This document shows positions 1,519 to 5,590 of a DNA stretch of 5,616 nt, one piece after another. A program made the translations under genes and the position numbers. The DNA is taken from contig DQGV01000154.1 in NCBI GenBank assembly GCA_003524705.1, positions 1-5,616 of the forward strand, written 5' to 3'. Every line of letters starts with the position of its first letter. The stretch's first letter is position 1. Origin of the DNA: Anaerolineae bacterium. GTDB taxonomy: Bacteria; Chloroflexota; Anaerolineae; Anaerolineales; Villigracilaceae. The notes beneath the pieces are model-generated. The model was not told where the DNA came from. It did no database searches and saw nothing but the letters and a program-made list of their open reading frames with translations.

Positions 1519-1594
1519 TTAGCCACAGAGGTCACAGAGCTCACTGAGATTTTTTGAGGATTTTCTCAAAGGTCTCAGTGAGCTCTATGGCTAA
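1519..1594. repeat. 76-bp nested palindromic intergenic element (TTAGCCA...TGGCTAA)
   Basis: Outer arms TTAGCCA (1519-1525) and TGGCTAA (1588-1594) are perfect inverses. Inner arms AGAGCTCACTGAGA (1536-1549) and TCTCAGTGAGCTCT (1573-1586) pair over 14 bp. A small central hairpin, TTTGAG (1553-1558) / CTCAAA (1565-1570), sits inside. The left arm holds a 9-nt-period direct repeat (CACAGAG at 1524 and 1533). The spacer between outer and inner stem is 10 nt on the left and 1 nt on the right, a difference of one such unit. It begins 5 nt past the stop of the DinB-like gene and may help end that transcript, although no long T-run follows. From memory it resembles the 'TTAGCCACAGAG...CTCTGTGGCTAA' repeats of many environmental bacterial genomes; I could not search for copies. 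Confidence 0.85.
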
Positions 1595-1599
1595 ATAAT

Positions 1600-2037
1600 T
1601 TATTTCCTTAATGCCATCTCGACTTCATCCAAATGTTCGTTTCTATGCAAAGCGCGGACAACGAGTCTTTTGTTATGCTCATGGATTTCTTCAAGCAAAT
1701 CTTTTGGAAATTTTTCTAGCTGATTATCCAACTCTTCGGCAGACTCAATAGCGAGTTTAATCGCCTCTTTCGCAGGGACAACTGCCCACAATGGCAGAGA
1801 CAAATCATTAACTACAGTTTCCACTTCCACAACGGATAATTTTCCATGCTTTGCAGTTTGTTCCAAAGTGGCTAACACGCGCCTATCCCAAAACGCCAAG
1901 TGGACAAATGCAATCGCCACCGTCCAATGTTCACCAACGCGGGTTTGGAATTGTTCATCTGTGAGGCTAGAAGCTATTCTTTTGATTCGTTCTGTAGATT
2001 CACGATTGAGTTGGTTGTAGTTTGGGTCAAGGGGCAT
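1600..2037 (-). CDS. DinB/YfiT-like four-helix-bundle protein
   Basis: 145 residues, the usual size for a small DinB-superfamily protein. An N-terminal helix (about 7-24) is followed by LTDEQF and then EHWTVAIAFVHLAFWDRR (36-53), matching the family's 'W-x-hydrophobic-HL-x-x-W' block with His46 as a likely metal ligand. Two further helices follow, then the C-terminal HRNEHLDEVE (131-140), with His131 and His135 giving the remaining two ligands expected of a three-His site. Members include metal-dependent thiol transferases and many proteins of unknown activity; the substrate here cannot be inferred. The start is supported by AAAAGGA ending 7 nt before the ATG. This Shine-Dalgarno overlaps the TAA of the upstream gene (12-nt gap), so translation is probably coupled. 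It is the last gene of a three-gene cluster; a 76-bp palindrome follows its stop. Confidence 0.75.
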   Translation of the reverse strand: MPLDPNYNQLNRESTERIKRIASSLTDEQFQTRVGEHWTVAIAFVHLAFWDRRVLATLEQTAKHGKLSVVEVETVVNDLSLPLWAVVPAKEAIKLAIESAEELDNQLEKFPKDLLEEIHEHNKRLVVRALHRNEHLDEVEMALRK

Positions 2038-2955: not shown

Positions 2956-3015
2956 GTAAGGGCGACCCTTCAATATCATCATTGAGTCTAATTGATATGG
3001 GCGGGTCGCCCCTAC
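2956..3015. repeat. 60-bp palindromic element, copy A (GTAAGGGC...GCCCCTAC), intergenic
   Basis: Arms GTAAGGGCGACCC (2956-2968) and GGGTCGCCCCTAC (3003-3015) pair over 12 of 13 positions; the odd position becomes G-U in the minus-strand transcript. An inner pair ATATCA (2973-2978) / TGATAT (2993-2998) can extend the structure. No T-run follows on the minus strand, so it does not look like a simple terminator. The outer 8 bases of both arms are identical to those of the copy inside radA (4028-4088), while the inner five base pairs differ. It is in the leader of the DUF2277 gene if radA transcripts read through or a promoter lies upstream of it. Confidence 0.85.
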
Positions 3016-3084
3016 TGATTACTGACAACTGATTACTACCAACCACCAACTGACCACTATCAACTATTCCCTATTCACTAATTA
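3014..3084. repeat. Degenerate short tandem repeat overlapping the radA stop
   Basis: ACTGATTACT occurs at 3014-3023 and again at 3028-3037 (14-nt period). Looser relatives follow (ACCAACCACCAACTGACCAC, then CTATCAACTATTCCCTATTC and CACTAATTACC). On the minus strand this is a run of AGTAATCAGT- and GTTGGT-like units. It begins within the last two bases of palindrome copy A and runs through the radA TAG and final codons. Similar low-complexity 'CTGATTACTGA' tracts are common between genes of cyanobacteria and Chloroflexi (recalled, not searched). It is not a CRISPR: units are short, degenerate and lack unique spacers. Confidence 0.65.
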
Positions 3085-4523
3085 CCTTTCTTCAACGCCG
3101 CATCTAATGCTTGATCCAAAGACCTGACTTCAATTATCTCAATTCCTTTGGGATATTCTTCGCCTTTGCGAATCGCTTTAGGAACAATGGCAGTTTTGAA
3201 TCCTAACTTTTGTGCTTCTCTTAATCGCGCCACCATCTGACCCGGCATCCGCAACTCACCTGCCAAACCAATTTCACCAATGAAAACAACATCGGCTTTT
3301 ACAGGCAGGTCTTTCCATGATGATGCAATTGCAGCGGCGATGGCTAAATCTGCGGCAGGTTCGTCAATTTGAATCCCACCGACCACGTTTACAAAAACAT
3401 CTTGTTCTGCAAGTTTTAATCCAACACGACGAGTTAATACGGCTGTAATTAATAACAAACGATTAAAGTCCACCCCATTCGGTGTGCGACGTGCATTTCC
3501 AAATTGAGTCGGTGATGTTAGACCTTGAATTTCAACCAAGATAGGTCGTGTGCCTTCCATTGTCACTGCAATGGATGAGCCTGCGGCATTGACTAATCTT
3601 TCTGCTAAAAATGCTTCGGATGGATTCGTCACTTCGGTTAATCCGCCTTCTCGCATTTCAAACACGCCAACTTCAGATGTTGCACCAAAACGATTCTTCA
3701 CAGAACGCAACAAACGATAGGCTTGAAAACGGTCGCCTTCTAAATATAAAACTGTATCCACAATATGTTCCAACACACGCGGACCCGCAATATTGCCTTC
3801 TTTGGTCACATGCCCAATCATAAACACTGAAACGCCCGATGATTTTGCTAACTCGCGTAATTGCGATGAACATTCACGCACCTGAGTCACCGAACCCGCA
3901 GACGAATCTAATTGGGATAAATAAACTGTTTGGATGGAGTCAACAATTAACAGGTCAGGTTGTGAGGCGCCTACATGATTCAAAATTACTTCGAGATTCG
4001 TTTCAGTCACCAACAATAAATTATCTGGTAAGGGCACAGCGGAATTTTTTGAAGTCTTTGATAAAGAATCATCTTGCTGTGCCCCTACATTTTTCAAACG
4101 CATCGCACGCATTTTGATTTGCCGTTCAGATTCCTCACCCGACACATACAAAACTTTTTGCGTCTTCGCCATCTCCATTGCCATTTGCAACATCAAAGTG
4201 GATTTGCCAATGCCCGGATCACCACCCACCAAAACGATGGAACCCGGCACGATGCCGCCGCCGAGGACGCGTGCAAATTCGCCAATCGCCAAATGGACTC
4301 TTTCTTCCGCTTCACCCCCGACTTTTGAAATGGGTTGCGGCTCTGAACGTCCGGTCAAGCCTCGAACATTGACCGCATTTTTCTTCGCTGCAGATTCATC
4401 ATGAATCACTTCTTCTATCATGCTGTCAAACGCGCCACATTGCGGACACTTGCCCATATAACTTGCCGAGACTCTTCCACATTGTTGACAAACAAAGCGT
4501 GTATGTGTTTTTGTTTTTGCCAT
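3078..4523 (-). CDS. radA: DNA repair protein RadA/Sms, with an in-frame repeat-derived insert
   Basis: RadA is a RecA-related, DnaB-like hexameric ATPase that promotes branch migration in recombinational repair. 481 residues versus roughly 455-460 in well-known bacterial members. In order: a four-Cys zinc finger (Cys12, 15, 26, 29); the ATPase core with Walker A GGDPGIGKST (100-109), the VSGEES segment (127-132) and Walker B LLIVD (191-195); the RadA-specific KNRFG motif (276-280); and a Lon-protease-like C-terminal domain (about 300-475). All key motifs are intact. The extra length lies mainly at residues 146-166 between 'MRAMRLKN' and 'DNLLLVTET', where homologues have only a few residues, and is encoded by a 61-bp palindromic element. 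The start has an AAAGAG site 6 nt upstream, within the last codons of the nuclease-like gene (2-nt gap), implying co-translation. The stop lies in a tandem repeat. Confidence 0.97.
   Translation of the reverse strand: MAKTKTHTRFVCQQCGRVSASYMGKCPQCGAFDSMIEEVIHDESAAKKNAVNVRGLTGRSEPQPISKVGGEAEERVHLAIGEFARVLGGGIVPGSIVLVGGDPGIGKSTLMLQMAMEMAKTQKVLYVSGEESERQIKMRAMRLKNVGAQQDDSLSKTSKNSAVPLPDNLLLVTETNLEVILNHVGASQPDLLIVDSIQTVYLSQLDSSAGSVTQVRECSSQLRELAKSSGVSVFMIGHVTKEGNIAGPRVLEHIVDTVLYLEGDRFQAYRLLRSVKNRFGATSEVGVFEMREGGLTEVTNPSEAFLAERLVNAAGSSIAVTMEGTRPILVEIQGLTSPTQFGNARRTPNGVDFNRLLLITAVLTRRVGLKLAEQDVFVNVVGGIQIDEPAADLAIAAAIASSWKDLPVKADVVFIGEIGLAGELRMPGQMVARLREAQKLGFKTAIVPKAIRKGEEYPKGIEIIEVRSLDQALDAALKKGN
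4028..4088. repeat. 61-bp palindromic element, copy B, in-frame inside radA
   Basis: Arms GTAAGGGCACAGC (4028-4040) and GCTGTGCCCCTAC (4076-4088) pair over 12 of 13 positions. The single odd pair is at the same place as in copy A and again becomes G-U in the mRNA. A small internal hairpin TCTTT (4055-4059) / AAAGA (4063-4067) lies in the 35-nt centre. It has no stop in the radA frame and encodes residues 146 to the first base of codon 166, a hydrophilic, Ser/Asp/Lys/Gln-rich stretch (VGAQQDDSLSKTSKNSAVPL) in a probable surface loop. Confidence 0.85.
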
Positions 4524-4525
4524 AT

Positions 4526-5590
4526 TTAACTCTTTCTACCGTTTGGTTTCGTAACTGATTTTGCAAATTCAAAATTCTCATTAACAATTTTTGTTAAGTA
4601 ATCTAATTGTTTATCTCTTCCGATCTCGAAAAAGTGTTCAGGGATTTTTATATCGTTTCTCCATCTAATTATTTTATATTGGCGTTCATAAAATGTCTTA
4701 CCAAATTCATTGTAATCCTGCTCAATATCTGATATACGATGGAAGGTGGAAAATTTCAAAACCTCTGGGCGATTATATTCTAGCCATACAAAATAATCTC
4801 CATTATCAATGTTGTAAATAACAGAGCCATTGCCTGATTTATCATTTGTAGAGTCGAACTTTATTTTAGATTCATCAGTAAATGTTTTTATCGCTTCAAA
4901 CAAAAGGAGCAAAAATTCATATAACGACTTTAACTCATTTATTGATATTAGCTTATCCAAACTCTTAAATCTATTGTATAAGACTGATGCTTCGCCAGTA
5001 ACACTTCTATATTTGGATAGCCCATCAGAAATCGGTGAGGAAACTTTCAACAATGTCGATCGTTGGAACTCAAGAAACTCAATGAAACTTTTAATCAAAA
5101 AACGACTTACTTCTTTATCTGTTGAATTTGATGCTTGTTCTAACCATTCCGCAATTTGATACCAACGAAGAGGAAACGCCCCTTGTGTTATATCACTTGA
5201 TATTGGTGACCTTGTTAAACAAACCAACATTTTATTTTGAGGTTTATTAACTTTTTTCTGTAACAAATCTAAATAAGATAAAACTTGAGTACGATTAAGA
5301 GGTGAACCAAATTTGATTTCTACAAAAATTAATTTGTCTGGTGTTTTTATTTCAATGTCTTGAATTGTGTTTTCTAATCTTGATTGTGTTGAAATTTCAA
5401 TTTGATGTACTTTATCGCTTGAATTAATAAGCCCATTTGTGAGTTTAGAAAGAATCTTTACAAAAATAAGTTTTTCAGAACCCTGAAGATATCTGAGAAG
5501 ATAGGCAAAAGATTCCGTTGTGAAATTTTCATCTTGTCTAGATGCCCAATGATGTAGACTAATGAACAAATTGCTAGGCGATTTCATCAC
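4526..5590 (-). CDS. PD-(D/E)XK nuclease-like protein
   Basis: 354 residues. The N-terminal part has a PD-(D/E)XK pattern: ENFTTESFAYLLRYL (21-35) with Glu26, Asp78 in NTIQDIEI as the first catalytic acid, then LIFVEIKFGS (87-96) giving Glu91-x-Lys93, and Gln102...Tyr106 (RTQVLSYLDLL), the 'Q-x3-Y' helix typical of the PDDEXK_4-type group. The C-terminal half (about 190-354) is not recognised; it has a WLEYNRPE strand-like segment and ends in a charged tail. Such proteins are predicted Mg-dependent DNA nucleases, often stand-alone or in defence or mobile contexts; the target is unknown. The first codon is GTG with an ATG directly after (5587); no Shine-Dalgarno is visible, and the frame has no stop up to the window edge, so an upstream start cannot be excluded. 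AT-rich relative to radA, which follows 2 nt downstream. Confidence 0.7.
   Translation of the reverse strand: MMKSPSNLFISLHHWASRQDENFTTESFAYLLRYLQGSEKLIFVKILSKLTNGLINSSDKVHQIEISTQSRLENTIQDIEIKTPDKLIFVEIKFGSPLNRTQVLSYLDLLQKKVNKPQNKMLVCLTRSPISSDITQGAFPLRWYQIAEWLEQASNSTDKEVSRFLIKSFIEFLEFQRSTLLKVSSPISDGLSKYRSVTGEASVLYNRFKSLDKLISINELKSLYEFLLLLFEAIKTFTDESKIKFDSTNDKSGNGSVIYNIDNGDYFVWLEYNRPEVLKFSTFHRISDIEQDYNEFGKTFYERQYKIIRWRNDIKIPEHFFEIGRDKQLDYLTKIVNENFEFAKSVTKPNGRKS

Follow-up and report, generated by a model that had tools for sequence, protein, structure and literature searches.

In-frame palindromic repeats have probably replaced a tolerant RadA loop repeatedly in Anaerolineales

To our knowledge, in-frame palindromic elements have been reported mostly as scattered oddities. 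The closest described systems are the RPE of Rickettsia, palindromic repeats in frame within open reading frames (ORFs) that likely code for functional proteins, and the GTAG-tagged REPs, dispersed hairpins with a GTAG terminus and with Chloroflexi among their hosts, both as presented in the relevant parts of Di Nocera et al. 2013 (PMC3733652). The same parts describe REPs within replication and repair genes, among them recB, where two Xanthomonas species have REPs at nearly matching positions. Its parts on GTAG REPs do not name RadA or Anaerolineae, and no report of coding palindromes in RadA or in Anaerolineae was found among the best-ranked literature matches. Coding palindromes and REPs in repair genes are already known, and what appears to be new at the locus described here is a single RadA loop replaced again and again by captured repeats.

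The window (the whole stretch of 5,616 nt of DNA from an uncultured Anaerolineales bacterium that was analysed) contains an intact radA gene (Table 1). Its product is a full-length match to known RadA/Sms proteins (TIGR00416, 595.5 bits versus a cut-off of 403.05 over residues 1-473; PDB 5lkm, E = 3e-142; PDB 8rxc, E = 4.2e-142), from which it differs by a repeat-coded loop added after ERQIKMRAMRL. A viral scan for radA gave no match. The first-pass annotation had reported a 61-bp palindrome with 13-nt arms (12/13 paired), in frame and stop-free within this ORF, and this was borne out: an inverted-repeat search found 13-nt arms that are 92% complementary at a spacing of 35 nt, and the element encodes the stop-free residues VGAQQDDSLSKTSKNSAVPLP. 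DNA folding of positions 4020-4096 gave -13.1 kcal/mol versus -5.64 (sd 2.08) for shuffled sequences, with none of 200 shuffles as good. Because the window holds 31 inverted pairs in total, a 13-nt pair is unremarkable alone. The extra residues lie where known RadA has a short connector, as seen in S. pneumoniae RadA (PDB 5lkm), and the claim that the protein exceeds typical RadA by about 20 residues agrees with a relative (L002) that is 51 nt shorter in the loop. A structure model of the window RadA from 40 near relatives has a mean pLDDT of 49.4; in it the loop follows a helix, but the model is too poor to support the surface position that the first-pass annotation proposed.

Table 1. Location of radA and its associated palindromes in the window.
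Feature	Position	Strand	Basis or reading
radA (sms)	3078..4523	(-)	ORF of 481 aa, intact host gene; TIGR00416, PDB 5lkm and 8rxc matches
61-bp palindromic element	4028..4088	(-)	RadA residues 146-166, codons 4026-4088
5' arm in reading direction, GTAGGGGCACAGC	4076..4088	(-)	Read V-G-A-Q
35-nt interior	4041..4075	(-)	Read Q-D-D-S-L-S-K-T-S-K-N-S; first and last bases common with the arms
3' arm, GCTGTGCCCTTAC	4028..4040	(-)	TTAC gives Leu and the first base of Pro, natively coded in relatives
60-nt palindrome, stem GGGCGACCC	2956..3015	undefined	Inverted-repeat search and fold; directly downstream of radA

The closest relative genome examined (G001, the genome of Anaerolineales bacterium UBA2317, locus L001) served as a stand-in for the window's own genome. 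Its RadA is identical to that of the window over residues 1-479 and the insert DNA is the same. The flanking stretches are only 90-93% identical at the DNA level, so the two are perhaps different species.

The 61-bp stretch belongs, as one copy among many, to a dispersed family of GTAG...CTAC repeats that are REP/MITE-like and mostly intergenic. It scores 74.6 bits against family model R1, which was partly built from the L001 copy, identical to that of the window. The first-pass annotation had made its reading depend on other copies in the genome, and these are abundant in G001, where a covariance model built from ten copies gave 60 matches on both strands in 31 places, at least 26 of them full-length (58-62 nt); this is a lower bound, as 150 of 2018 candidates were scored. 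Family matches occurred in 16 of the 20 genomes searched. The usual long-form layout is GTAGGG[GA]CACAGC, 34-35 nt, GCTGTG[CT]CCCTAC, and most copies have GTAG or GTAA with CTAC or TTAC as termini. The 48 aligned rows outside radA are mostly 59-60 nt long, with 61 nt in four, and the radA rows are 61 nt in six of six. Flanks of copies elsewhere are AT-rich and yielded no consensus target site. A second, short form of 28 bp with many stem variants is dispersed too. Besides radA, copies in open frames in G001 were found in L103 (335 aa) and L120 (179 aa) among the 23 of 26 places tested.

Between ERQIKMRAxRL and LLLVTETN, the loop runs to 9-13 residues, e.g. NGKKELPKNL, in 96 of 118 distinct radA genes, and 13 have a recognisable palindrome there. 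The 118 genes derive partly from a similarity-ranked search; about 20 of 142 radA matches, mostly divergent or truncated, lie outside the set, including carrier G147, and the radA regions of L209, L248, and L250 were missed by the loop motif scan. Loops of L045, L070, L074, and L258 are possibly eroded palindromes and were counted as non-carriers. Nine carriers are of the long type, of which L031 and L073 are eroded, L006 and L039 have an extra partial copy, and L201 has an extra half arm; four are short (L068, L072, L181, and L257). About five stems are represented (GGGCACAGC, GGGCGCAGC, GGGCGGACGG, GGACGAATCG, and GGGCGAAG). L068, L181, L072, L257, and L201 have palindromes of differing kind, and L041 and L068 have different palindromes within common flanks. 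As for same-length loops without a palindrome, which the first-pass annotation regarded as contrary evidence, the nearest non-carriers of the carriers have the short native loop, and L031 and L073 go partway, with long loops in which the palindromic DNA is eroded. Protein P0001 occurs on 5 contigs and P0002 on 9.

Similar repeats occur elsewhere in nine of the 13 host genomes, as long copies in G001, G005, G006, G007, and G008 and as short copies with the same or a near stem in G015, G042, G130, and G112. No clear repeat source was seen within the other four: in G004 short copies were found and no other long copy, G009 had no family match, G020 had two weak matches only, and a search covering short copies found none with the same stem in G024.

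The suggestion that a spreading repeat had entered a tolerant loop of RadA is supported, but its plain insertion is not, since native nucleotides are missing. In all nine carrier/non-carrier pairs measured, which cover nine of the 13 carriers, the net gain falls short of the length of the element stretch by 7-13 nt; for L006 (85 nt) and L201 (79 nt) that length was judged by eye. No target-site duplication was seen in radA; instead, 7-13 native nucleotides are missing in each of these pairs. The right end of the element codes for Leu and part of Pro, which relatives code natively. The pattern resembles replacement of a loop guided by short similarities at the ends more than it resembles a transposition that leaves a duplication. 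We consider it probable that dispersed mobile palindromes replaced a tolerant RadA loop in frame, repeatedly, in many Anaerolineales lineages. The palindrome in radA, captured in frame on this reading, now codes for about 20 residues of a loop with a conserved block of the ATPase core on either side; each event would replace a short native loop (e.g. NG-KKE-LP), with CTAC or TTAC at the right end taking over the Leu codon. Survivors would be the in-frame events in tolerant loops, and after capture the insert would drift faster than the remaining RadA.

Similar repeats appear to have been captured at the same RadA loop many separate times, judging from trees built from radA. With the loop removed, the carrier state changes 12 times on the DNA tree and 13 times on the protein tree of the 118 genes. 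A 41-row tree gave 11 changes, of which at least nine are forced by well-supported branches; shuffled labels gave a mean of 11.2, and as low a number in 271 of 500 shuffles, and this tree favours scatter because its non-carriers were chosen near carriers. A single clade was rejected both for all 13 carriers (p-AU 2.9e-5) and for seven 61-bp carriers (p-AU 8.8e-4). On a tree of 200 proteins, a set biased by the 120 rows that an insert-bearing query had retrieved, lnL was -142.4 for loss only, -117.9 for gain only, and -101.6 for both.

Directly downstream of radA, the first-pass annotation had placed a related element. The 60-nt palindrome has the 13+34+13 layout of copies elsewhere in the family, but its stem (GGGCGACCC) differs, so that the relationship holds for the layout and not for the stem. 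At the same spot L001 has a 28-bp palindrome (GTAGGGGCGACTGGCCAGTCGCCCCTAC) that has GTAGGGGCGAC in common with the 60-nt form of the window, so that a long form in one and a short form in the other of two close relatives take up one position. On the other side of the gene, the radA leaders of L065, L061, and L066 contain different hairpins near one spot, either a 60-bp element or a hairpin resembling GTAGAGCGACTT...AAGTCGCTCTA.

Long and short forms at one position would also be expected if one old ancestral insertion had been inherited vertically, with later losses in most lineages and local remodelling in which 61 bp became 28 bp and stems were converted by genomic copies. Such a history would account more simply for the agreement of the listed radA copies in reading phase and in their 61-nt length; the difference of 33 between 61 and 28 keeps the frame, L041 and L068 show a change of palindrome between common flanks, and the lack of another long copy in G004 suits remodelling. 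The source of the elements, as assessed by interior similarity, is indecisive: interiors of radA copies resemble each other slightly more (means 0.61-0.68) than they resemble outside copies (0.57-0.66), yet the L001 interior has its best match (0.74) in a copy at another place of the same genome. Against a single insertion, the losses would have to restore a native loop of the K-x-LP type many times, the loss-only fit is worse on the biased protein set, and one clade is rejected, a result that taken alone is compatible with loss. We regard a single ancestral insertion as rather unlikely.

Selection for the insert, through a role of the coded loop or of the mRNA hairpin in RadA activity or expression, seems less likely again. 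A peptide query taken from the long form in the RadA reading frame gave 12 matches across 152 genomes, and all seven in frames longer than 380 aa are RadA, but this query covers one reading frame, and 61-bp elements occur in frame and are read differently in the transposase-like ORFs L144 and L391. Across 81 inserts, a biased set, V-G-A-Q and S-A-V-P-L-P at the two ends are conserved, and these residues coincide with the ends of the DNA element. Hairpins in the radA leaders and directly after the gene would fit a role in expression. Opposed to this are the very different palindromes in the loop, the 105 of 118 radA genes counted without one, and the quick drift of the interior: the insert is 70% identical where RadA is 92-95% identical (304 overlapping pairs). 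Constraint on the insert thus appears weak.

As a further alternative, homologous recombination could pass radA segments with the insert from lineage to lineage; as the main process this is a poor candidate. Between the window and L001, 806 nt of radA around the insert (window 3685-4490) are free of mismatches, with 4 mismatches in the first 1191 nt of the gene and 16 in the next 239; such a run occurred in none of 200,000 random placements. Lying amid flanks that are 90-93% identical, it indicates a recent recombination tract within radA that includes the insert. However, the two partners of this exchange are close relatives. Around the loop, the nearest non-carrier is a closer match than the nearest carrier for nine of the 13 carriers, and L039, L041, L201, and L257 are equally close or closer to another carrier. 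Within 75 nt of the loop, the carrier/non-carrier pairs diverge 0.9-1.7 times as much as in the remainder, with a ratio below 1.4 in 11 of 13 and more divergence than elsewhere in nine of 13, and no clear donor tract at the loop was seen among distant carriers in these 13 pairs. Recombination of insert-bearing radA is shown as a secondary process. A chance palindrome or an assembly artefact, for which the modest arm size alone speaks, is hardly credible, as the same DNA is present in L001, the two proteins recur on several contigs, and the dispersed family elsewhere (G001) excludes a chance palindrome.

RadA is not the sole host gene, which answers the suggestion that other ORFs carrying the element be sought. 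The fetched loci contain 168 distinct palindromes, 44 of which lie within an open frame that extends 40 or more residues to each side, by a crude test that admits spurious frames. Sixteen host ORFs chosen from the 44 were all above the Pfam cut-off, and in 13 the domain match spans the element; the spanned domains include LeuRS, a class I tRNA synthetase read as ValRS, GatA (twice), GatB, MoeA, M20 peptidase, acetyl xylan esterase, amino-acid kinase, DegT, and E1 dehydrogenase. The element lies beside the domain match in MutS2-like, ABC-type, and glycosyltransferase ORFs. Different palindromes occupy one site in the M20 peptidase (G042 and G130) and in the esterase (G004 and G024). In the editing-domain loop of LeuRS (L436-L445), G015 and G012 have a 28-bp GTAG palindrome, G008 and G024 have two unrelated palindromes at the same site (by eye), and the other six of ten matched genomes retain the native loop in a short form (e.g. 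EGVEL). A comparison of GatA in G024 and G061 (G015, G008, G110, G013, and G116 were not parsed by the motif) shows a 24-nt palindrome body in place of GATGGCGACGCG before TTGCGCGG. The GatA of G024 (L349) contains two 28-bp palindromes in frame, of which G061 has the first site only. Long elements in other frames were found in the transposase-like ORFs L144 and L391.

A broader reading, tentative and in our judgement doubtful, is that the palindromes are exchangeable loop cassettes that swap native loops in frame at RadA, LeuRS, M20 peptidase, and acetyl xylan esterase. Their ends would resemble native codons (GTAGG approximating GA-GG, and CTAC or TTAC approximating a Leu codon such as CTGC or TTGC), so that a template-switch or transposase event would put a repeat-coded loop in the right frame, at the same sites again. 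With lengths that are both 3n+1 (28 and 61) and with open frames, the elements would be protein-compatible. If this is true, Anaerolineales have in these cassettes a continuing supply of new protein loops.

The palindromes probably moved through a REP-type tyrosine transposase that works on single-stranded DNA, or else through template switching where the ends are similar. For TnpA-REP, cleavage close to CT dinucleotides is one idea, which plays no part in the reading given here. Y1 transposase (Y1_Tnp) genes are present in ten of ten genomes tested. A strict search found no palindromes beside 30 Y1 loci, with separate arms near one (L292), and RAYT flanked by a repeat pair, as a mobiliser, was not seen at these loci. 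Several Y1-like ORFs of one subtype carry an element right after the HxH motif (L144:1849-1909, L391:701-761, L292, and possibly L352). These elements are 61 bp in L144 and L391 and 92 bp in L292 (a 202-aa minus-strand ORF), where two GTAG-tagged hairpins are seen by eye, and they differ from genome to genome. Matches to NF047646, the REP-associated tyrosine transposase, reach 66.2 bits in L144 and 68.6 bits in L391, under the cut-off of 80. Y1-like genes with internal elements are thus a lead as to the possible mover.

Other repeat-like features were observed in the RadA set and in the window. The P0103 RadA has the residues PFDKAQDR before RVLYVS, and the P0114 RadA has SVLSAVEG in the same loop; both look to us like coded copies of other repeat types. 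Window positions 1520-1600 form a strong intergenic hairpin (-21.2 kcal/mol, z -7.0) with CTCACTGAG arms, perhaps of another repeat family. At 570-600, a hairpin CCTCTCGG...CCGAGAGG precedes a run of T on the (-) strand and is, by eye, a likely terminator of the gene ending at 609. The (-) ORFs at 4526-5590 and 2050-2721 had no NCBIfam match.

One loop of a repair protein has apparently been overwritten many times, and its insert-free relatives are ready controls. This opens a long-standing question to testing: by what route selfish repeats get into important genes and leave them intact, and whether repeat DNA is a routine raw material of protein loops. Annotated Chloroflexota proteins may hold repeat-coded residues (VGAQ..APLP) that could mislead alignments.

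Compared with known systems, the elements have the GTAG end of the GTAG REPs and are likewise dispersed hairpins, but in the REPs, as described in the relevant parts of PMC3733652, GTAG is an unpaired tag beside the stem, whereas here it pairs with CTAC within the arms. Inverted pairs of GTAG-ended repeats are common to these elements and to the REPINs and RAYT transposases (PMC3116915 and PMC2817692), and the Y1 genes in all ten genomes tested, with an element inside some Y1-like ORFs, fit this likeness; unlike in REPIN/RAYT, repeats flanking the Y1 genes were not seen at the 30 loci. Unlike MITEs, the radA copies are without target-site duplication. The likeness to the protein-coding palindromes of Rickettsia drawn by the first-pass annotation was apt, as the Anaerolineales elements are also dispersed palindromes of which some copies lie in frame in conserved genes. 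In the parts of PMC3733652 that treat RPE, those of R. conorii end in CGTC, whereas the Anaerolineales elements end in GTAG. Compared with RPE as described there, what sets RadA apart is that one loop of one gene repeatedly bears different palindromes, with native nucleotides missing.
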